Virus record (IMG/VR): IMGVR_UViG_3300031957_000962
Span: 1 to 39,708 of that record
Length of the DNA stretch: 39,708 bases
Strand: one strand, 5' to 3'
Source: a virus
Shown here: positions 5,474 to 29,931 of the stretch, one piece after another
Layout of the letters: each line of letters begins with the position of its first letter
Position numbering within the stretch: position 1 is the first letter of the stretch
The notes under the pieces: generated by a model
Seen by the model: only the letters and a program-made list of their open reading frames with translations
Database searches by the model: none
Told to the model about the DNA's origin: nothing
Made by a program: the position numbers and the translations under genes

Positions 5474-6043
5474 ATGAGTGATGTGTTTTCACTGTTTGAA
5501 GAAGAAGCTGCCAACCCTCAAGCATTTGATAAGGTTGGAGAAGATGGTACTAAAAGACTATCTTCACTTATAAGGCAAACTGTTGACTTAGATAAACAAG
5601 TCAAAGATGCCGAAAAATACTTGAAAGACTTGCAGTACAAAAAGCGAACTATCGATGAGGAGGACATACCTTCATTAATGGAAGAGCTTGGAGTACAAAG
5701 TCTGACAGTAGATGGGAACAAAGTCTCCGTAGAAAAATTTGTATCAGCAAGAATTCCTGAAGATAAGAAGGCAGAAGCATTTAACTTTCTGCGTTCTATT
5801 GGCGAGGCTGATATAATTAAGAACGAAGTCGTTGTTCAATTTGGGATGGGTCAAGATAATGTAGCGGGGGCCGTGCTTGATGATTTATCAAAGCAAGGGC
5901 TAAATCCTGCCCAAAAAACCCATATACACCCAATGACTTTAAGGACATGGATAAAGAACAGAATCGAAGATGGTCAAGAGGTCGATTTCGATACGTTTGG
6001 AGTTTATGTTGGTAACCGTGCAAAGATTAAAGGAGGTCAGTAA
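5474..6043 (+). CDS. Coiled-coil conserved phage protein upstream of SSB
   Basis: The 189-aa product has an acidic N-terminus (MSDVFSLFEEEAANPQ) and a coiled-coil region at about residues 25-70 (DLDKQVKDAEKYLKDLQYKK). A globular C-terminal part follows (HPMTLRTWIKNRIEDGQ, DTFGVYVGNRAKI). The gene layout, overlapping the SSB-like start as TAATG, suggests a DNA replication or recombination accessory. The coiled coil recalls host-nuclease inhibitors such as Gam, but I cannot show homology. GGAGAG precedes ATG 5474. Similar N-termini here and in the SSB gene product (EEEA motif) may reflect a shared interaction. Confidence 0.75.
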   Translation: MSDVFSLFEEEAANPQAFDKVGEDGTKRLSSLIRQTVDLDKQVKDAEKYLKDLQYKKRTIDEEDIPSLMEELGVQSLTVDGNKVSVEKFVSARIPEDKKAEAFNFLRSIGEADIIKNEVVVQFGMGQDNVAGAVLDDLSKQGLNPAQKTHIHPMTLRTWIKNRIEDGQEVDFDTFGVYVGNRAKIKGGQ

Positions 6044-6834
6044 TGTCCCAAGCAGTAGCACAAAAAGCAAAGACAGAAGTAGCAGTATCAGATTTATCTT
6101 CATTACTTGAAGAAGAAGCTGGTGCTGGTCTTGAAAACTTCACAACAGACGATATGCAAATTCCTTTTATAAGGATACTACAAGCATTATCGCCACAACT
6201 AAACAAGCAAGACAGTATGTATATGAAGGGAGCCGAACAAGGCGACATCTTTAATACTGTGTCTCAACAAGTCTTCCGAGCAGAAGAAGGAATAATTGTT
6301 GTACCTTGTTTCTTTGAAAAGAAGTTTCTGGAGTTCGCCCTTAGATCAAGTGGTGGTGGTTTCATTAGAGAACTATCTCCCGATGATAAGGACATAACTT
6401 TAACAACTCGTGAAGGTGCGGCAGAAATTCTGCCATCTGGTAATGAGTTAGTTAGGACTCATCAACATCTCGTGCAAGTGATGGATCCCGAAACTAAGTT
6501 AAGTTCTCCAGCAGTTCTTGATATGAAGAAGACACAGTTAAAAGTCTCTCGTAGATGGAACACTATGAAGAATGGCATAAGACTACCTTCGGGTAAACCT
6601 ATGCCTCTCTATGGAACTGCATGGTCTATTAAGACTATTGCAGAAAGCAATGATCAAGGTAGTTGGTATAACTACAAGGTTGATCGTGTAACTGAGATGA
6701 CAAAGGAACTAGAGGCTATGATGTTAGAGGCTAGGACTATGTATCAAAGTTTTAGAAAAGGGGAAATTAAAATGGCTGCGGCTTCTGCCGATGAAATGTC
6801 ATCAAGTCAGAAGGACGAAGAAATACCGTTTTAA
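6043..6834 (+). CDS. Single-stranded DNA-binding protein (phage type)
   Basis: The 263-aa product ends in DEEIPF (258-263), the acidic tip with terminal Pro-Phe through which SSBs bind partner enzymes. The body has a globular domain (about 30-200; QIPFIRILQALSPQLN, GTAWSIKTIAES) and a helical, then Ser/Asp-rich linker (about 215-257). Length and layout fit phage SSB-like proteins rather than E. coli Ssb. It would coat single strands for PolA, primase and helicase encoded next. TAATG couples it to the upstream gene. A strong terminator follows at once, so SSB is likely made in larger amounts than the replication enzymes downstream. Confidence 0.7.
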   Translation: MSQAVAQKAKTEVAVSDLSSLLEEEAGAGLENFTTDDMQIPFIRILQALSPQLNKQDSMYMKGAEQGDIFNTVSQQVFRAEEGIIVVPCFFEKKFLEFALRSSGGGFIRELSPDDKDITLTTREGAAEILPSGNELVRTHQHLVQVMDPETKLSSPAVLDMKKTQLKVSRRWNTMKNGIRLPSGKPMPLYGTAWSIKTIAESNDQGSWYNYKVDRVTEMTKELEAMMLEARTMYQSFRKGEIKMAAASADEMSSSQKDEEIPF

Positions 6835-6892: not shown

Positions 6893-8431
6893 GTGAATTT
6901 AGCAGAAGAATTAATGAAAGCCTTTGAAGGTTTTCGATCAGCACATGGTCAGACAGAAGTGTCAAGCCAAAGAACGGCTGGCAAACAAAAAGCAAAATCT
7001 TACATTGTAAGAAATCCATTAACACTTGAATTAATCCAAAAGCACATCGATGGTAAACAAGGTGTCGGTGCTATACCAATCAATGAGGATAACAAGTGCA
7101 AGTTTGGTGCTTTAGATATAGATCAATATCCTCTTGACCATAATGAATTAATAGATAAATTAGAAAAGTTCAATGTTCCGTGTATCGTGTGCCGTAGTAA
7201 ATCTGGTGGTGCACATATATTCTTTTTCTTTGAGGAGTGGATGAATGCGAGTGATTTTAGAGACAAGGCTGCTGAAATATCTGCTGCTCTTGGGCATGGT
7301 CGGTGTGAAATATTCCCGAAGCAAGAACAGGTTCTTGTCGAGCGGGGCGATGTGGGTAACTTCATTAATTTGCCGTATTTTGACTCGGATCAAACTTTCC
7401 GTTATGCGATCCTCAAAAAGGAGGGAACGTACAAGGATGCTTCGTTACAGGAATTCATTGAAGAGATACAAAAAGTCAAAACGAATCCGAAAGATTTCTT
7501 AAAGATACCAATCGGTGGGGCAGTCGAATTATATCCTAACTATGTTCCGTGCTTACGTTCATTAATGTCAATAGGTATATTCGAAGGGGGGAGAAACCGA
7601 GCTGCTTTCCATCTTGGTGTTTTCTTACAAAAAGCTTTTCCCCAAGATTGGAAATCTAAATTAGAAGAACATAATGCAAAAGACTTTACACCACCACTTA
7701 CGGCATCAGAAGTTGTAGCAATACAAAACACATTAGAAAAAAAAGAATATCAATATTTATGTAAAGAAGAACCTATGTCCTCTCATTGTAATCAAGGAGT
7801 ATGTAGAACTTTAAAGCATGGTATTGGTGTTGGATCTATGCCTACAATTAGTGGACTATCTGTTATCTTATCGGAGCCAAGACTATGGTTCGTGGATATA
7901 GGTGGGAGAAGACTTGAGTTAACAACAGATGAATTACAAACTCCAAGACTGTTTCAAAGAGCATGTATGGAACAATTAAATTTCATGCCCCCGAAGTTAA
8001 GAGATAATCTTTGGGAAGAACAAATCAATGGTTTATTAGAAAACTGTAATGAAATAAATGTACCCGAGGAACTTACATACAAAGGACAGTTTATATCTTT
8101 GTTAGAGACTTATTGTACGGGGCGAGTACAAGCACAAACCTTTGAAGAAATTATGTTAGGTAAACCATACACAGAGGCAGAAGAGAGTAAGACTTATTTT
8201 AGGCTTGAATCTTTGATGGAGTTTATGAGACAGAAAAAGTTTGACGTTTATACAAGAGCACAAGTGCAAGAAAGATTAAAAGAAATAAATAGTGGAGATA
8301 GTTCTATTGTAAAAAGATTTAAAACATCAACGGGAAACTCTAAAACAATTCGTGTTTGGAGTATACCAGAATTTGTGTCAGAAGTAGAAATAGAACCCGT
8401 TAAGATAGAAGCAGGTGAGGCACCGTTCTAA
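6893..8431 (+). CDS. Archaeo-eukaryotic-type primase (TOTE/AEP)
   Basis: The 512-aa product matches AEP primases of the TOTE type. The catalytic D75-x-D77 is in FGALDIDQY, and the nucleotide-binding motif is SKSGGAH (102-108). Downstream come IFPKQ (140-144) and the GNFINLPYF segment (155-163). A cysteine/histidine patch (CKEEPMSSHCNQGVC) may bind zinc, and the C-terminal 100 residues look like a winged helix. It synthesises primers for PolA. The start is GTG 6893 with GGAG six bases upstream. It ends EAGEAPF, faintly like an SSB tip. The TAATG overlap couples it to the next gene. The terminator upstream should limit its expression. Confidence 0.85.
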   Translation: MNLAEELMKAFEGFRSAHGQTEVSSQRTAGKQKAKSYIVRNPLTLELIQKHIDGKQGVGAIPINEDNKCKFGALDIDQYPLDHNELIDKLEKFNVPCIVCRSKSGGAHIFFFFEEWMNASDFRDKAAEISAALGHGRCEIFPKQEQVLVERGDVGNFINLPYFDSDQTFRYAILKKEGTYKDASLQEFIEEIQKVKTNPKDFLKIPIGGAVELYPNYVPCLRSLMSIGIFEGGRNRAAFHLGVFLQKAFPQDWKSKLEEHNAKDFTPPLTASEVVAIQNTLEKKEYQYLCKEEPMSSHCNQGVCRTLKHGIGVGSMPTISGLSVILSEPRLWFVDIGGRRLELTTDELQTPRLFQRACMEQLNFMPPKLRDNLWEEQINGLLENCNEINVPEELTYKGQFISLLETYCTGRVQAQTFEEIMLGKPYTEAEESKTYFRLESLMEFMRQKKFDVYTRAQVQERLKEINSGDSSIVKRFKTSTGNSKTIRVWSIPEFVSEVEIEPVKIEAGEAPF

Positions 8432-22611: not shown

Positions 22612-22989
22612 CTATAACGCTGTTGTACTTCTGTTCTGTGCATATTCTTGTATACTTGCTACAACATGTAATCTGTTTCCTGTTGCTGCTTGAACTTTTA
22701 ATATTTCTCCACCTTGTAAGACAAGACTATGTGTTAATAGCTCAACTGTAGCATTAGCACCCACTGCTGCAACTTTAAATAAACTGAAAACATCACTACC
22801 GTTTGTAAGTGTTACTGTAAGTGTGTCTGCATTACCAGAATCTTCTGACACTAAAATAGAATTAACAACAGAAGCATTAAACTCTGCTCCACTAGGTGCA
22901 GTATATAAAGTAACCACACCAGTGCCTGTTAAATCTGCTTTTGCATTTGTTATATTTTGTATGTACTGAGGTATTGCATTAATTAACAT
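22612..22989 (-). CDS. Small beta-rich virion protein (125 aa)
   Basis: ATG 22989 overlaps the stop of the upstream tail gene as TAATG, which fixes the start; a frame reaching 23040 has no support. The product (MLINAIPQYIQNITNAKADL) reads as a beta-sandwich, with segments GVVTLYTAPSGAEFNASVVNSILV and DTLTVTLTNGSDVFSLF. It resembles the small structural proteins that accompany phage tail tubes or decorate virions. No cysteine or catalytic motif is seen. Confidence 0.7.
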   Translation of the reverse strand: MLINAIPQYIQNITNAKADLTGTGVVTLYTAPSGAEFNASVVNSILVSEDSGNADTLTVTLTNGSDVFSLFKVAAVGANATVELLTHSLVLQGGEILKVQAATGNRLHVVASIQEYAQNRSTTAL

Positions 22990-24890
22990 TATCTTCTTCC
23001 ATCTGGTCTCATATCGACACGAGGAGTACCAAGTTTCCAAGCCACTCCTTGATCAGTAGATTCTAATTTTAAACTAAACGATCTTCCTCTAAGTCTCACA
23101 TCGACAACATCTGTAAATTGTTCTACAGGAGTTGTTGCTGTTCTAGTCGATTGCCCAGAAGAATTTGTGTCATATGTACTTCCAGGACCATTTCTTGCCT
23201 GCAATGTAAATGTAGCATTTGGATTTCCAGTGCTTGATGTAGATCCTTCAAAAGTTATATCGGGTATTAATTGCTTAATAAAGCTAAATTGATAGCCATC
23301 TCCTATATCTAACTGACTTGATTCAACTGACGCAGTCATAGGAGAACCGTCATCATCATTACCATTTTCGTGTTCGTATAAATATTGAGAACCTGCTGCG
23401 ATAGGAAATTGTCTAACCCCTCTATCATGCCAAGCTGTTCTTGATAATGTCCCATAGTACCATGATTTATTAGCATAATTAAAAACAACATATTTGTTGT
23501 TTTCTTCACTATCGGCAGATGGGTAAAACCACCAAACCTCACTCCACTGAGAATTTACACCTGATACCACTTTGTCTTTTTGCGTTTCGTTAAAATCTAA
23601 GAAGACTTTATCACGAACAGTACATGGTATTTGTTGAGCTACCCCACCAGTATAAGCATAGAAATTTTCTTTACCCATCCACAAAACACTTTCATCAACG
23701 GCTACTGCTGCTTTTGAACTAATTATAGTAATATTTTTTGAAAGCTCTTGCAGACCAAATGTAAAAGGAGGACCTATAAATCTCATAGAAAATAAACTTC
23801 TATCTGTAAATATAAGTATCTGTTGCTTAGTCTCCACTGCTTGAACAAAGCTAGATCCACTACTTAATCTTAAATCTCCAGCAGTATTTGTTGCGGTGGG
23901 CGTAAAATCAGTTAAAGATTCTTGAGAACCAAAACGTATTAACAATGGATCTTGGACCGTGGTTCCAATAGTATTAGCACCAAAAGCAATAAAATGCCGA
24001 TCAATGTCAGAGACCATTACTTGTTTAGCAATCGTTGGAGAGTCAGAAGCTCCTGCTAAAGAAGAGAGAGCTACGGCTCTTGAACTAGTGCCGTTGGTTT
24101 TATCCCAATAAAAGATACCACCATCTCTTGGATTAATAATTAAATCTTCACCAAAATTATCATGCGACCAAACACGAACAGTTGCTGTTGTTCCAGAGGC
24201 GGCGGCTTCTCCCCAACCAAAAGTTGACAGATCTGCGTTGACTCCACTGTAGCCACCTGCTCCCCAACCATTTCCACCTACTGCTGTATCTAAACCAACA
24301 TTAACTTGATAAGAAGCATCTCCACCAGATCCACCATTTCCAGTATCAGAACTATTAGCTGTTACAGTATTACCACTAGTATCTTTGGCTACTATGACAT
24401 AACTATTGGCATTAGTTATTGACTCTATTTGATATTCTTGATTTAGAACTTCTGCTGTTATTAAGCCACCTAAACTAACAGCTCCTGCTAAAGTAACAAA
24501 GTCATTTACAACTGCACCATGAGAACTATCTGTAACAGTCACACTAGAAGAACCATCTGTAGCAGAGAAAGTAACAGAATTTGTAGATGTTTTACGAACT
24601 GGTGTTATATCTGAAAAAGCACCACCTTCTTCTATGTAATACTTCAACTGTGTTCCAACACCCATATAATTAGAACCATCTATTGCAACCCAATTATGTA
24701 AGGCTCTTGCTGTTCCTAGATAAGTATTGCTAGATTGTTTTACCCATCCACCTATTTTTTCTGGAAAGGGAGTATAAAATCTTACCTTTTCACAATCAAA
24801 AAAGCCACCTTCATTAGAGTAAGATGTTATCTCTCTGTTGATTCCTGGTCTGAATTTTAAAGATTGTATAGGCATAGCCAATAATACCAT
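22989..24890 (-). CDS. Tail tube / stabilisation protein (P22 gp10-like)
   Basis: The 633-aa product starts MVLLAMPIQSLKFRPGINRE, with the conserved segment SNEGGFFDCEKVRFYTPFPEKIGGW. It continues as a long beta-propeller-like protein (LFSMRFIGPPFTFGLQELS, WWFYPSADSEENNKYVVFNY). This layout fits the podovirus tail hub or stabilisation proteins related to P22 gp10 and marine tail-tubular proteins. The start at 24890 follows the previous TGA directly; Met6 at 24875 is an alternative. It lies between the oxygenase cluster and the internal proteins. Confidence 0.75.
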   Translation of the reverse strand: MVLLAMPIQSLKFRPGINREITSYSNEGGFFDCEKVRFYTPFPEKIGGWVKQSSNTYLGTARALHNWVAIDGSNYMGVGTQLKYYIEEGGAFSDITPVRKTSTNSVTFSATDGSSSVTVTDSSHGAVVNDFVTLAGAVSLGGLITAEVLNQEYQIESITNANSYVIVAKDTSGNTVTANSSDTGNGGSGGDASYQVNVGLDTAVGGNGWGAGGYSGVNADLSTFGWGEAAASGTTATVRVWSHDNFGEDLIINPRDGGIFYWDKTNGTSSRAVALSSLAGASDSPTIAKQVMVSDIDRHFIAFGANTIGTTVQDPLLIRFGSQESLTDFTPTATNTAGDLRLSSGSSFVQAVETKQQILIFTDRSLFSMRFIGPPFTFGLQELSKNITIISSKAAVAVDESVLWMGKENFYAYTGGVAQQIPCTVRDKVFLDFNETQKDKVVSGVNSQWSEVWWFYPSADSEENNKYVVFNYANKSWYYGTLSRTAWHDRGVRQFPIAAGSQYLYEHENGNDDDGSPMTASVESSQLDIGDGYQFSFIKQLIPDITFEGSTSSTGNPNATFTLQARNGPGSTYDTNSSGQSTRTATTPVEQFTDVVDVRLRGRSFSLKLESTDQGVAWKLGTPRVDMRPDGRR

Positions 24891-25499
24891 TCATGATGGT
24901 TTATGTAAAGTTACGTTGACATTGAAGGATATAGAAACTCTAGGACTATCTGAAATATTAGGATGAGCCATATGTTGTAAAAAAGATGGGAAAAGTAAAA
25001 GATCTCCCTCTTTTGGTAAAACTCTGTATTCATCTCTATTTTGTTGATCACCCTCAATAGAATTCATATTTGCCTGTGGTCGTGGGTCAAAAAAAGATAT
25101 ATGTGAAGGAGCTAAATCTTTTCTATGAGTTACATATTTTTGTTGATTTGGCATACTCACATAATAAACTCCAGATAGCCAACTATGTGGATGATTATGA
25201 GGTACATGATAATCACCTTTTAAATTCATATTAGACCAACCAAACAAATTATAATCTAGATTATAATTAATACCTATATATCTTATGTAATTTGAAACAT
25301 GTATGTTAATTACTTTAATAAGCCACTGCACTGCATTGTGCTTTACAGTAAAAAAATTATTATTTCTATATTCTTCCGTCAAATTTGGTATGTTTTTATT
25401 CATTTCAAGTATCAGATCTTTTAAATCAGTGTTTACTAACTTAGTTTCTAATATTTCTTCATGCATAAAAACAGTTGGAAAGAGTGAATTAAAACTCAT
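24891..25499 (-). CDS. 2OG-Fe(II) oxygenase (TIGR02466-like), oxygenase 1
   Basis: The 202-aa product shows the TIGR02466/2OG-FeII_Oxy_5 pattern. HNHPHSWLSGVYYV (from residue 101) supplies the first iron ligands, and FFDPR follows at 136-140. LLLFPSFLQHMAHP supplies the distal His (176 or 179), with R187 in RVSISFN for 2-oxoglutarate. Enzymes of this fold hydroxylate peptides, nucleic acids or small molecules using Fe(II), oxygen and 2-oxoglutarate. It is the last of four consecutive oxygenase genes and ends at the tail protein start (TGAATG). Substrate unknown; a virion protein is plausible from its location. Confidence 0.88.
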   Translation of the reverse strand: MSFNSLFPTVFMHEEILETKLVNTDLKDLILEMNKNIPNLTEEYRNNNFFTVKHNAVQWLIKVINIHVSNYIRYIGINYNLDYNLFGWSNMNLKGDYHVPHNHPHSWLSGVYYVSMPNQQKYVTHRKDLAPSHISFFDPRPQANMNSIEGDQQNRDEYRVLPKEGDLLLFPSFLQHMAHPNISDSPRVSISFNVNVTLHKPS

Positions 25500-25501
25500 T
25501 G

Positions 25502-26107
25502 TTATAGAGAATTGATGTTATTTAAAAATTCTGCATTATGACTTAGAGTAGGTATTGGTTTAATCATTTCACATCCATACTCTCGAGTAATGCCTCCACC
25601 AAAATAGTTAATATTTATAGTTACTCTATATAATGCATTAGTTGGTGAAGAACTAAAGTGTGAAGTAGATGGATCAAAAAGCAGTAATCTATTTTCTTTA
25701 GATTCTATTTCAACTCCATCAAACATTGTAGTAGGTGCATCACAATTTGTTAGAAAGAATAAAGCACCTTGATGTACAAAAGAATTATCTATATGGGGAG
25801 CATGATAATTAACTTGAGATGTGTCACTAGTTATATACAAGTTTGCTTTCACTCTTATTGTAGCTTGAATATGTAACTTTTCTAAAATAGTTTGAAAGGG
25901 TCTTCTGTCTATAGAAGGTGCCCAGCCTTCGTCATTACAATTAAAATAAACCATTGTACCAAAGTACATATCTTCGTTCTTAGTATCACCATCATTTATT
26001 CTACCACTAAGATTCCAAGGAAAATTTCCATTTGGACCCAAAAATGACTTTAATAAACCAAACTCATGGGCTGGTAAAAAATCATCATAAACAATATAAT
26101 ACGACAT
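25502..26107 (-). CDS. 2OG-Fe(II) oxygenase-like protein, oxygenase 2
   Basis: The 201-aa product has a double-stranded beta-helix signature. HID (105-107) lies in YHAPHIDNS, GALFFLTNCDAPTTMFDG forms the core strands, and NRLLLFDPSTSHFSS carries the distal His150. R161 in YRVTINI would bind 2-oxoglutarate. The sequence differs strongly from its neighbours, so it is not a recent tandem copy. It is separated from oxygenase 1 by two bases. It may act on tail protein side chains, a host surface component or a metabolite. Catalytic residues look intact. Confidence 0.82.
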   Translation of the reverse strand: MSYYIVYDDFLPAHEFGLLKSFLGPNGNFPWNLSGRINDGDTKNEDMYFGTMVYFNCNDEGWAPSIDRRPFQTILEKLHIQATIRVKANLYITSDTSQVNYHAPHIDNSFVHQGALFFLTNCDAPTTMFDGVEIESKENRLLLFDPSTSHFSSSPTNALYRVTININYFGGGITREYGCEMIKPIPTLSHNAEFLNNINSL

Positions 26108-26115
26108 AAGTGCTC

Positions 26116-26700
26116 CTATTTAAAAGTTGGACCATTAACCCAACAAACTAAACTATATCTAATTCCCTTTGTGACAGGTTTAACACCATGTTGTAGATAA
26201 GAAGGAAAGAAAATTACCGTTCCTTGCTGTCTAGAATCCTCAACATTAAATTTTTCTTTGTCATCTGGAAATTCAAACTCTCCACCCTCATAATACTCTG
26301 GTGGTGTTAACTGTATAGACAATGATAATTTACGGACATTCGCTCCTGGGTTTAAACCATCATAAAAACCGTCTATATGAGGACTGTAAAATCCTTCATT
26401 GTTTGCACAATACTTAGTTATTTGAAAAGGTTCTGGTTCTACTAAATCAAAACCATAAAATTCTCGATTTACTTTTTCTATTAGTTGTGCGATAGGAATA
26501 AAGACATCAAGATGTTTCAAAGACCCAGTTAGCCAACTAGTTTCGCTTCTTCTTATAGTTGCATTGCTATGTCCTGCATGTTGATTTTCTATAGGCCCAC
26601 CTATTTGAGCAGGTACAAAATTATTCTCTGCCATTTTTATTATATGATTACATAAATTTGAATCAATAGCATCTTTAGCTACTATTATATTTCTTTTCAC
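26116..26700 (-). CDS. Prolyl-4-hydroxylase-like 2OG-Fe(II) oxygenase, oxygenase 3
   Basis: The 194-aa product is closest to the PKHD/P4H type. HID (108-110) in YSPHIDGF provides two iron ligands and the distal His171 lies in FFPSYLQHGVKP. R181 in GIRYSLVCWVNGP is the 2-oxoglutarate anchor, and EGGEFEFPDD is the typical core strand. Such enzymes often hydroxylate proline or other residues in proteins. It is one gene in a four-gene oxygenase run and lies four bases downstream of oxygenase 4. All catalytic residues are present, so activity is likely. Confidence 0.9.
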   Translation of the reverse strand: MKRNIIVAKDAIDSNLCNHIIKMAENNFVPAQIGGPIENQHAGHSNATIRRSETSWLTGSLKHLDVFIPIAQLIEKVNREFYGFDLVEPEPFQITKYCANNEGFYSPHIDGFYDGLNPGANVRKLSLSIQLTPPEYYEGGEFEFPDDKEKFNVEDSRQQGTVIFFPSYLQHGVKPVTKGIRYSLVCWVNGPTFK

Positions 26701-26703
26701 TAT

Positions 26704-27249
26704 TTATCCTTGTGTCTTGTTTGGTTCTACTGCGGTACGATATAAATATTCTCTTTGATCATATTTATATTTACGGTTTTCTTCTTTTTGTTCTATGTAA
26801 TGTAAAAAAACATGATTAGAAAAATCATAAGGATAAGGCTCTCTCCAATGTTCTTGTTCACAACCTTTATAAACTACTCCTTGTCCTGCTCTTAATGTTA
26901 TTGCAATATTATCTACAAAAATAGGATAAGGGTATTCTGGGTTTGATGAATTTAAGTATATTGTAGTACTGTACTCACAAGCAGGTCTATCGGTATGTTT
27001 TGGCAATAAAGAATCTTTTATGTATGACCTAAAGAAAGAATAAGTGGGCCAAAGTTTTTTGCCAACTAAATCTTCCATTTTCGGTAATAAATGTAATAAA
27101 AGACTTTCAAAAACTAAATCACCATAAAATGACTTACATGGCATACCCTTTAAGTGCTGCTCAATAGGTAAGTAATCTTTTAAACTATTTGCATGTGTAG
27201 TTAGATAATTTAATAAATCATCTGGTATAGCAAAAACACTGTTTTTCAT
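26704..27249 (-). CDS. 2OG-Fe(II) oxygenase-like protein, oxygenase 4
   Basis: The 181-aa product has HTD (85-87) in LLPKHTDRPACEYSTTIYLN and distal His134 in GCEQEHWREP. Strands around YPIFVDNIAITLRAGQGVVY give the double-stranded beta-helix. The usual distal arginine motif is less clear, though R136 is close. This version resembles small oxygenase-like proteins beside phage and cyanophage tail genes. It is first of the four oxygenase genes in transcription order and is preceded by a hairpin and a possible promoter at 27269-27314. Confidence 0.78.
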   Translation of the reverse strand: MKNSVFAIPDDLLNYLTTHANSLKDYLPIEQHLKGMPCKSFYGDLVFESLLLHLLPKMEDLVGKKLWPTYSFFRSYIKDSLLPKHTDRPACEYSTTIYLNSSNPEYPYPIFVDNIAITLRAGQGVVYKGCEQEHWREPYPYDFSNHVFLHYIEQKEENRKYKYDQREYLYRTAVEPNKTQG

Positions 27250-27320: not shown

Positions 27321-27668
27321 TTATGACCAAGGAAAGTCTGACTGTTCTGTTAGTCCCATTACCGAATCTTGATACGCTACTATTTGTGCCATTCGTCCTT
27401 TAATGTCTGTAAGATCCGAACTCAATCTGGTTTCAACAAAATCAATAACATTTGTTTTTGTTAAATCAGCATATGGTATAAAAGTAGACCAATCTGTAGG
27501 ATTTCTTAAATTTAAATCAAAACCATGCTCTGTATCTTCACCAGTAGCATCACTAGTACAAGTAATAATACCAAGCACTCTACCAACAACATTACTATAC
27601 GTTGTACCACTTTCTGTTACGTTTTTAGTAAAGACGGCAGAAATCGCCCAAGTATAACTATTTGACAT
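27321..27668 (-). CDS. Small conserved phage protein downstream of the adhesin (115 aa)
   Basis: The product begins MSNSYTWAISAVFTKNVTESG and continues with NVVGRVLGIITCTSDATGE. A helical end follows (TKTNVIDFVETRLSSDLTDIKGRMAQI). The N-terminal beta strand and C-terminal helix resemble small proteins that often accompany marine phage tail fibre genes. A fibre-assembly or adaptor role is possible; I do not recognise a named family with confidence. It lies ten bases after the glycine-rich adhesin gene and before the oxygenases. Confidence 0.65.
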   Translation of the reverse strand: MSNSYTWAISAVFTKNVTESGTTYSNVVGRVLGIITCTSDATGEDTEHGFDLNLRNPTDWSTFIPYADLTKTNVIDFVETRLSSDLTDIKGRMAQIVAYQDSVMGLTEQSDFPWS

Positions 27669-27678
27669 TTTTTTTCTC

Positions 27679-28914
27679 CTATGATGTTGGTGCCGAACCA
27701 GCTATTGTTCCGTTATTTGTTAATGATATAGTAACTGGACTTGCTCTTTCCCAAGCACCTCCAGCCGCTCCTCCTGAACCAGCCGCTCCACCAGAAGAAC
27801 CAGCAGCAGTAGAATTAGTTCCTGCACCTCCTGCATTTCCATTATTTCCTGCCGTTCCATAATCACCACCTGTTCCACCGTTTCCTCCAGCCCCACCGTT
27901 TCCAGCTTGACCAGTTGATCCCGAAGAACCACTACCTCCAGAGTCTCCACCCGGTGTATTTTGAAAACCTCTACCTAAACCACCAGCAGCTCCAGCTCCA
28001 CCAGCATGTCCAGTGACCTGTGTTTGTTGTTGTTGTGGTACTTGTCCAGGATATCTACGATAAATTGAAAAGTTGTTTGGTCCTCCCGGTCCTTTATAAT
28101 ATGTGTATTGCCCAACAGTAACAGATGTTGTGCCTTGTGGTAAATTAGTAGGAGCACCAGAACTAGCATTATAAGGAAAACTGGTTGCCCCCCAAGCTAC
28201 AGCCGTTCCGTCTGATCTAGGACCCCAGTAATACTGAGGACCTGCACTTGTATTAAAAATTGGACCTTGTTGTAAAGTTCCGGGTGTTGTTGTTTGTTGT
28301 TGTTGTTGTAAAGCACCACCTCTACCACCGCCTCCACCGCCTCCACCGCCTCCTCCTCCACCGAGGATAGAGCCGTTGTTGATAAGAGTTGCGTTTACAC
28401 TAAACTTCATAGCGTTACCACCCGCAGACCCAGCAGATGCAGCACCTCCAGCTCCACTAGATCCAGCGGCACCCGCAGACCCAGCAGCACCTCCAGCTCC
28501 AATTATTGTACCATTGTTCGTGATCGTAATAGTACCAGAAGCAGGAGCATCTAGCTCTAGACCATACTCTGCTGTATTAGCTGAGCCAAGTGTAATAGGA
28601 GCGGGTATAATTATATTTTTAGGGTAGTCTACAGTATAGTCATCACCAAAAATAGCAGAGGCATTTTGATCAGTAGCATCTGAAGAATAAGTAAAAGTAA
28701 AACCTTTAGCTTGATCATAATAGTCACTAGCATCTAATGCCCCACTTGTTGGAACATCTGCCGCAAGGTTTGTTGAGGTATTATTAGGAGCCTTTGCTTT
28801 AATATTAGAACCACCTCTATATAATGCCCCTAATGGTACAGCACTAGAGCCACCTATAAATTCAGTTCTCAATGCAGAAAAAGATAAAGACTGTCCAGAA
28901 CTTGGAATAGCCAT
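27679..28914 (-). CDS. Glycine-rich (polyglycine) tail adhesin
   Basis: The 411-aa product starts MAIPSSGQSLSFSALRTEF, the adaptor-like N-terminus of many marine phage tail proteins. It has glycine-rich segments at about residues 139-168, 185-200 (13 consecutive Gly) and 302-387, broken by a Gln/Pro-rich, Tyr-containing insert. An INNGxIxG-type motif borders each segment (about 131-139, 176-184, 398-406). Such layouts fit polyglycine-II sandwich adhesins like the host-binding tip of phage S16. It should be at the fibre tip and determine host binding. Four oxygenase genes follow close by, so Pro, Asn or Gly-loop modification is worth testing. Confidence 0.75.
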   Translation of the reverse strand: MAIPSSGQSLSFSALRTEFIGGSSAVPLGALYRGGSNIKAKAPNNTSTNLAADVPTSGALDASDYYDQAKGFTFTYSSDATDQNASAIFGDDYTVDYPKNIIIPAPITLGSANTAEYGLELDAPASGTITITNNGTIIGAGGAAGSAGAAGSSGAGGAASAGSAGGNAMKFSVNATLINNGSILGGGGGGGGGGGGGRGGALQQQQQTTTPGTLQQGPIFNTSAGPQYYWGPRSDGTAVAWGATSFPYNASSGAPTNLPQGTTSVTVGQYTYYKGPGGPNNFSIYRRYPGQVPQQQQTQVTGHAGGAGAAGGLGRGFQNTPGGDSGGSGSSGSTGQAGNGGAGGNGGTGGDYGTAGNNGNAGGAGTNSTAAGSSGGAAGSGGAAGGAWERASPVTISLTNNGTIAGSAPTS

Positions 28915-28917
28915 ATA

Positions 28918-29931
28918 TTAAGCTCCATTATTAATTTGTTGTTTTAAAGTCTGTACTTCAATATTTAATTGTTTTACTGCCTCGATTAATACTGCTGTTA
29001 GTTTACCATAGTCAACTGATTTTGTTTCCATATCATCATCCGCCGTAAGAACAACTTCTGGTAAAATAGCTTCCATATCTTGTGCTAAAACACCAACTTG
29101 TTCTCTAGGATTTTCTACATCATTTCTTTTGTAATAAACACCTTGCATCTGCATAACTTTTTCTAAACCATTTTCTATTGGTTCAATGTCAGTTTTTAAT
29201 CTTTTGTCAGAAAAAGCAGTAACATCATTGTTAAATGTTGCGGCTCCAGCAGCAGACATATCTATTGTTAATGCTGTTATCTCACTTGTTGAGTCTTGCC
29301 CTTTGATAATAAAGTCTTTGTCATCAACATCTGTAGCTATTACAAAATCACTTGAAGAATTTATAAATTTTGCAATGGTTGTACCACCATCTTTAAAGAT
29401 GACATCAGCACCGTCTGCATCAAGTATAATATCTCCAGCAGAATCAAATGTCATATCACCAGAGTTTGTCTTCACTGTACTAACATTTACAGAACCACCA
29501 GATAAATCTAAATCTACAAAAGCATCAACAACTGCCGCTCCAGATCCTGCTCCATCTAAATATACTGCTTTAGCATCCCCAGGACCAATAGTGATACTGG
29601 CTCCACTACCTTGACTAATTACAATATTTTGTGCTCCACTCGTTGCATTTTCAATAATGTGAAATCGTTTAAGTGTGTTTGGACCGATAGTTATTGTACA
29701 CGAAGAATCAAGTGTTCCCGTATATTTAAGAAACATTGCTCTACCTGCATCCGTTGAACCATCTGCTACAGTTGTAGTATGTGTGTCTGCATTTGTAGTG
29801 ATGGCTTCAGTTCCAAAGCCTAATGCTTCACCAATAAGTTCAAGGTTGGTGTTTGTCGATGTACCCCATGTACCCGATTCATCACCAGTACCTATCTCTT
29901 TTAATCTAAGATTATTAACATATGTCGCCAT
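28918..29931 (-). CDS. Tail fibre with C-terminal S74 chaperone domain
   Basis: The 337-aa product has a fibre-like N-terminal region (YVNNLRLKEIGTGDESGTWG) and a repetitive beta middle (DMTFDSAGDIILDADGADVIF). A peptidase_S74 intramolecular chaperone starts at S241-D-K-R-L-K246 and includes REQVGVLAQDMEAILPEVV and KSVDYGKLTAVLIEAVK. In the family, the chaperone drives trimer folding of the beta-helix and then cuts itself off next to the serine of the Ser-Lys pair. It is encoded between the cupredoxin-like tail protein and the polyglycine adhesin, a fibre module. TAATG couples it to the upstream gene. Confidence 0.9.
   Translation of the reverse strand: MATYVNNLRLKEIGTGDESGTWGTSTNTNLELIGEALGFGTEAITTNADTHTTTVADGSTDAGRAMFLKYTGTLDSSCTITIGPNTLKRFHIIENATSGAQNIVISQGSGASITIGPGDAKAVYLDGAGSGAAVVDAFVDLDLSGGSVNVSTVKTNSGDMTFDSAGDIILDADGADVIFKDGGTTIAKFINSSSDFVIATDVDDKDFIIKGQDSTSEITALTIDMSAAGAATFNNDVTAFSDKRLKTDIEPIENGLEKVMQMQGVYYKRNDVENPREQVGVLAQDMEAILPEVVLTADDDMETKSVDYGKLTAVLIEAVKQLNIEVQTLKQQINNGA

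Follow-up and report, generated by a model that had tools for sequence, protein, structure and literature searches.

Marine phages are known to carry multiple oxygenases of the 2-oxoglutarate (2OG)-Fe(II) type. Up to five per cyanophage were recorded in 2010 (PMC3037559), and later reports give ten for the Synechococcus phage S-CREM1 (PMC9964418) and 24 for S-SCSM1 (PMC9602691). The ten of S-CREM1 are mutually divergent, and its ORF72-80 form a run of nine consecutive oxygenase genes, one of them named JmjC (PMC9964418). In the Pelagibacter phage Mosig EXVC030M, six adjacent genes (gp60-gp55) lie next to tail-fibre genes and include members named 'putative ferrochelatase' and 'putative DNA endonuclease V'. 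In the HTVC023P-type pelagiphages, oxygenases adjoin a gene called ferrochelatase (HTVC023P gp65-67); the published account, in its accessible part, treats these as co-located partner genes, places the oxygenases 'nearby but not adjacent' and makes no link to the tail tip (PMC9599517).

Here we describe a run of four such genes, designated A to D, in a 39.7-kb virus record (the window, that is, the whole stretch of DNA analysed). Like the S-CREM1 set, the four are mutually divergent; unlike the S-CREM1 run, which adjoins a tryptophan halogenase, they adjoin a tail-tip module. The setting resembles that in Mosig, whose run includes homologues of both D and B; however, Mosig is a myovirus, and its run has a different order and membership and is followed by a haem oxygenase and a bilin reductase. 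The gene called ferrochelatase in HTVC023P is likewise a homologue of D. The cyanophages P-RSM4 and S-CAM8 also carry a D homologue and several oxygenases near tail-fibre genes, but these phages are T4-like and their clusters are broken by other small genes. A sequence-only reading of the window had taken one or two oxygenases per genome as usual and a cassette of this size as undescribed; the 24 genes of S-SCSM1 and the runs in Mosig and S-CREM1 overturn both statements. Multiplicity and long runs were thus already known, and what is new here is the identity of the B and D families and the switching of the slot that houses them. Our literature search, which mostly excluded subscription journals, found no work tying such runs to tail-tip hydroxylation.

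As a separate observation, Mosig has a second cluster resembling modifying enzymes directly beside its tail-fibre genes (54701-60954), with an Asp/Arg hydroxylase domain, a taurine dioxygenase, an acetyltransferase, a methylase and an aminotransferase.

Genomic setting of the oxygenase genes

The window has plus-strand replication genes on its left (3-12.6 kb) and minus-strand structural genes on its right, and the oxygenase genes are located in the tail gene region of the latter (Table 1). The sequence-only reading had described four adjacent genes with gaps of 2-8 bases, and its coordinates proved exact: in the order of transcription, D-C-B-A (27249 to 24891), the D/C, C/B and B/A gaps are 3, 8 and 2 bases, and no base separates A from the structural gene ending at 24890. 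The dN/dS ratio against relatives is below 0.5 for each of the four, which points to maintained genes. Promoter and terminator signals flanking the cassette did not rise above the level of shuffled sequence, and no close DNA match to the window was found in the phage collection. Elsewhere in the window, two genes at 5474-6834 match the Pam3 gp33-like and gp34-like families (PF23984, PF23977).

Table 1. Features of the oxygenase cassette and its neighbours in the window
Feature	Position	Strand	Remarks
Virion structural protein	22989..24890	-	phrog_3287; marks the conserved downstream edge of the slot
Gene A, 2OG-Fe(II) oxygenase	24891..25499	-	202 aa; PF13759/TIGR02466; H101/H103 (His-x-His), H176, R187
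Gene B, DSBH oxygenase	25502..26107	-	201 aa; phrog_274 ('DNA endonuclease V'); H105/D107/H150/R161
Gene C, 2OG-Fe(II) oxygenase	26116..26700	-	194 aa, GTG start; PF13640; H108/D110/H171/R181
Gene D, DSBH oxygenase	26704..27249	-	181 aa; phrog_2954 ('ferrochelatase'); H85/D87/H134, invariant R74 and R136
Small DUF7936 (PF25590) protein	27321..27668	-	Directly upstream of D; C-terminal FPW motif
Glycine-rich (23% Gly) putative tail adhesin	27679..28914	-	phrog_10745; candidate substrate
Tail fibre, C-terminal Peptidase_S74 chaperone domain	28918..29931	-	

Fold, metal site and co-substrate

Profile searches placed A in PF13759 (E 1.9e-25; 89.6 bits against a cut-off of 27) and TIGR02466 (79.6 bits against a curated cut-off of 62.5), and C in PF13640 (E 3e-15, above the curated cut-off), as the sequence-only reading had suggested might be checked; the nearest solved relatives of C are PiuC/PKHD-type enzymes and prolyl hydroxylases. 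B and D matched no Pfam family, and for these two we obtained AlphaFold predictions from alignments of 25 (B) and 45 (D) relatives. The models have a mean pLDDT of 92 and pTM of 0.90 for B and 93 and 0.88 for D, and with Foldseek both matched 2OG oxygenases. In VIA-align comparisons the top-ranking solved structures for both are 2OG oxygenases: D superimposes on 2rg4, a solved relative of A, with a Z of 16.7 over 148 residues (rmsd 2.3), and B on 6n1f with a Z of 14.8 over 158 residues (rmsd 2.5); the corresponding values for PHD2 are about 15 for D and about 14 for B. B and C match peptidyl hydroxylases. Among the closest folds to D is the Pseudomonas putida prolyl hydroxylase 4iw3, whose structure was determined with EF-Tu, and the structural neighbours of D also include the small-molecule enzymes SnoN, BesD and HalA.

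The paired metal ligands and distal His listed for each protein in the sequence-only reading are all present and conserved across relatives. The canonical HxD...H triad is invariant in B, C and D: H105/D107/H150 of B, along with R161, occur in 41/41 relatives, H108/D110/H171 of C in 57/57 (R181 in 56 of them), and H85/D87/H134 of D in 78/78 distinct relatives. A instead has a His-x-His...His arrangement, like its solved relatives 3bvc and 2rg4, and H101/H103/H176/R187 are retained in 6/6 close relatives. With curated models for A and C and predicted structures for B and D that match solved 2OG oxygenases, none of the four lacks the double-stranded beta-helix (DSBH), a fold whose absence from two or more had been named as grounds for rejecting the reading. 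We therefore hold it as nearly certain that A to D share this fold and the metal site of the non-haem iron (2OG-Fe(II)) oxygenase superfamily.

The usual 2OG-binding Arg, 10-11 residues past the distal His, can be recognised in A (R187), B (R161) and C (R181), and the three very probably use 2OG. D has no Arg about 10 residues past its distal His; the only such conserved residues are R74, R136 and H150, which are invariant or nearly so both in phages and in the 12/12 bacterial relatives checked. Its use of 2OG is thus an inference, albeit a probable one. Direct comparison among A to D gave no cross-match at E<=10, though iterated profiles connect A, B and C, in agreement with the earlier view of an assembled set of dissimilar members rather than a tandem duplication.

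Two misnamed phage families

The database families to which D and B belong are named 'ferrochelatase' and 'DNA endonuclease V', respectively. A tblastn search of 50,697 phage records recovered relatives of D in 155 and of B in 206, and among the matches listed for the two proteins many bear these names. 'Ferrochelatase' proteins from HTVC033P, Mosig, P-RSM4, S-CAM8, ACG-2014f and HTVC023P (gp67) align to D, and 'denV' proteins from P-SSM2, P-SSM7, S-IOM18 and Mosig align to B, in every case with the triad intact. The Pfam ferrochelatase model gave no match at E<=1 for D or any of its 45 relatives, and the pyrimidine-dimer glycosylase (endonuclease V) model gave none at E<=1 in 25 B-family members, 14 of which match PF13640. 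No ferrochelatase or endonuclease V chain is among the structural matches listed for B and D, although absence from such a list is not proof.

The ferrochelatase name has a history in the literature: a 'ferrochetalase domain' protein was already listed in cyanophages (PMC3037559), phrog_2954 was reported, still as a ferrochelatase, to be enriched in seasonal phages (PMC11561400), and the fact that 'ferrochelatase' and 2OG oxygenase are constantly neighbours was read in PMC9599517 as an iron or haem partnership. Both of the latter papers based ecological ideas on the name, and the pairing of ferrochelatase beside oxygenase that they describe is one oxygenase beside another. Renaming these two abundant families takes away the published idea of a ferrochelatase partner in pelagiphages, and the seasonal enrichment of phrog_2954 is to be read as that of one more oxygenase, not of haem metabolism. 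For the D family the renaming is not wholly new, as S-CREM1 ORF80, a relative of D, is already annotated as a 2OG oxygenase.

Other names in these neighbourhoods call for similar care. The DUF6445 family (phrog_1644, 'minor coat protein') occurs in such runs (L021:8501-9178, L036:5076-5777, L060:5579-6193), and the last of these members also matches phrog_274 (E 5e-8), so that this family may be another misnamed oxygenase relative. In the window, the gene at 13282-13923 matches phrog_3704 'ferredoxin' with E 1e-110 and has zero Pfam matches; this name is probably a transfer error.

A variable slot beside the tail-tip genes

When D, B and the structural gene served as queries, the loci retrieved had oxygenase-like genes in runs of up to seven. 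With the structural gene as the anchor, we surveyed 65 loci that extend as far as the fibre module and found 0-8 oxygenase-like genes in the interval between the two; each gene was classed by its best match among a small number of superfamily profiles, which does not denote orthology. The interval is thus a variable slot, bordered on one side by the tail-tip genes (fibre, S74 fibre, adhesin, DUF7936) and on the other by the conserved structural gene. Its turnover is apparent even at short distances: loci with a structural protein 91-94% identical to that of the window have two, three or none of these genes (L100, L103, L104) as against four.

The content of the slot varies in step with the adjoining tail-tip genes. 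All 16 dereplicated loci with both the adhesin and DUF7936 carry D and 3-7 oxygenases, compared to D in only 4/33 other loci, and the DUF7936 gene and a second small family (MAHFAK...) replace one another, no locus having both. The co-occurrence with the adhesin that the sequence-only reading proposed to survey is hence borne out by the counts but not by the number of independent events: the structural-gene tree implies seven or more changes of slot type, yet only 3-4 independent switches or pairs are well supported, and a sign test of cassette against adhesin type on independent pairs gives p about 0.25. With so few pairs, the association between cassette and tail tip is not statistically secured.

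Several related phages have PP-loop genes (QueC-like; PF06508 for L021) among their oxygenases (L021:10397-11098, L016:8188-8850). D is about double its usual length in four contigs (L012, L013, L028, L032), and the extra N-terminal part in the first of these (7461-7994) is a domain of unknown function (phrog_28122). Cyanophage ACG-2014f and phrog_3531 provide examples of D and C genes joined into one.

Co-inheritance of D with the DUF7936 gene

We measured co-inheritance as the correlation of pairwise protein distances across 40 loci. DUF7936 is the strongest partner of D (r 0.74, n=40), and the other pairs gave much lower values (adhesin-DUF7936 0.28, adhesin-D 0.23, D-C 0.29, C-B 0.18). All compared pairs except adhesin-D are neighbours in the window; since D-C, C-B and adhesin-DUF7936 are equally adjacent and yet weakly correlated, proximity alone does not account for the value of 0.74. 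D is thus co-inherited with the DUF7936 gene, and this makes DUF7936 the first candidate for a partner or substrate of D. Adjacent genes nevertheless recombine as blocks, so that co-inheritance can be hitchhiking, and a recombination border between the adhesin and DUF7936 could account for the correlation. The adhesin, which the sequence-only reading had named among the possible substrates, does not behave as the partner of D, its weak correlation falling to -0.03 in an 18-locus set.

At the C-terminus of the DUF7936 proteins, a variable linker leads to a Phe-Pro-Trp that is almost invariant. We considered this motif as a site of prolyl hydroxylation and rejected it because the Pro-Trp persists in phages without PF13640 oxygenases: the DUF7936 relatives of two phages with no match to this family end in ...KDAPWA and ...TTPPWVTPSAE. 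A protein search for further DUF7936 members in other phages returned two weak matches and then none. Roseobacter phage CRP-235 has two DUF7936 copies, along with a putative toxin-activating lysine-acyltransferase gene in its tail region (L185, 12343-12765), possibly another modifier of tail proteins.

Relatives of D in bacteria

A scan of bacterial genomes found relatives of D in 29 contigs, at least one of which (L220) resembles a phage fragment. The Mycobacterium attenuatum relative has a class II lanthipeptide synthetase (PF13575 and PF05147) on one side and, one gene further on the other, an ABC transporter; in Spirosoma, a fusion of a C39 peptidase and a 2OG oxygenase is found near D; and a Thiogranum bin has a TPR-sulfotransferase followed by D and then two C-type genes. 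The few loci examined thus speak for substrates that are peptides or proteins.

Functional interpretation

Taken together, we propose a four-oxygenase cassette, situated in a variable slot and linked to the tail tip, which hydroxylates peptide or protein side chains of tail-tip substrates; as a whole, we would give this account slightly less than an even chance of being right. A to D would be transcribed with the tail genes, and with 2OG and O2 the enzymes would hydroxylate side chains on tail-tip proteins just made from the upstream genes, with DUF7936 as the first candidate for D, followed by the adhesin and the fibres. Each version of the tail tip would bring its own tailoring enzymes. That the substrates are tail-tip proteins is itself a tentative proposition. 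Doubtful is the further notion that the cassette parallels the tailoring enzymes of peptide natural products, hydroxylating the phage's own tail-tip proteins and being exchanged with them, such that host recognition needs matched sets of protein and enzyme. In the accessible parts of the S-SCSM1 and S-CREM1 reports, no oxygenase is named among the virion proteins; this is compatible with enzymes that modify virions and do not remain part of them, but lends no support to the idea. The interpretation of the sequence-only reading as a whole is partly supported.

The foremost alternative is that these are host-directed auxiliary enzymes that alter host metabolism or proteins, for instance the 2OG level and nitrogen signalling, translation factors, or surface or small molecules, with the tail slot merely accepting cargo genes. 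Published interpretations of cyanophage oxygenases point this way, invoking 2OG and NtcA (PMC3037559) or host reprogramming (PMC9602691, PMC9964418), and the proximity of D's fold to the EF-Tu-bound 4iw3 is in keeping with them. The slot also admits PP-loop and DUF6445 genes, and in ACG-2014f, P-SSM7 and P-SSM2 homologues of B and D are found far from tail genes, with replication or metabolic genes around them, which leaves room for a host or metabolite substrate. Against this, the cassette content tracks the tail-tip type, D tracks DUF7936 in its divergence, and the 4-8 divergent members per slot exceed what lowering 2OG would need. We consider the host-directed role unlikely, though a serious contender.

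A role in tailoring free small molecules or secondary metabolites, as amino-acid hydroxylases or halogenases, is more improbable still. A tryptophan halogenase precedes the run of nine in S-CREM1, another adjoins a denV-named gene of S-H38, and SnoN, BesD and HalA are near D in structure; but no halogenase or other biosynthetic gene was recognised in the window, and the resemblance of B and C is to peptidyl hydroxylases. Modification or repair of DNA or nucleotides in the manner of AlkB or TET/JBP had been suggested earlier for 2OG enzymes encoded next to uvs genes in cyanophages (cited in PMC3037559, PMC9146016), and 3/45 relatives of D weakly match PF13532 (E 0.06). However, A to D have no TET/JBP or AlkB family match and the cassette is set apart from the replication genes, making this role very unlikely. 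That D is a ferrochelatase supplying haem or iron to oxygenase partners, as its database name and the reported co-occurrence (PMC9599517 and PMC11561400) would have it, is scarcely credible given its oxygenase fold, its conserved HxD...H and the failure of the Pfam ferrochelatase model to match.

Marine phages carry very many oxygenases of this kind, and for the tail-tip account the slot and DUF7936 provide concrete substrate candidates. If tail tips are indeed oxidised, host range would depend on a protein modification that is invisible to sequence-based host prediction.
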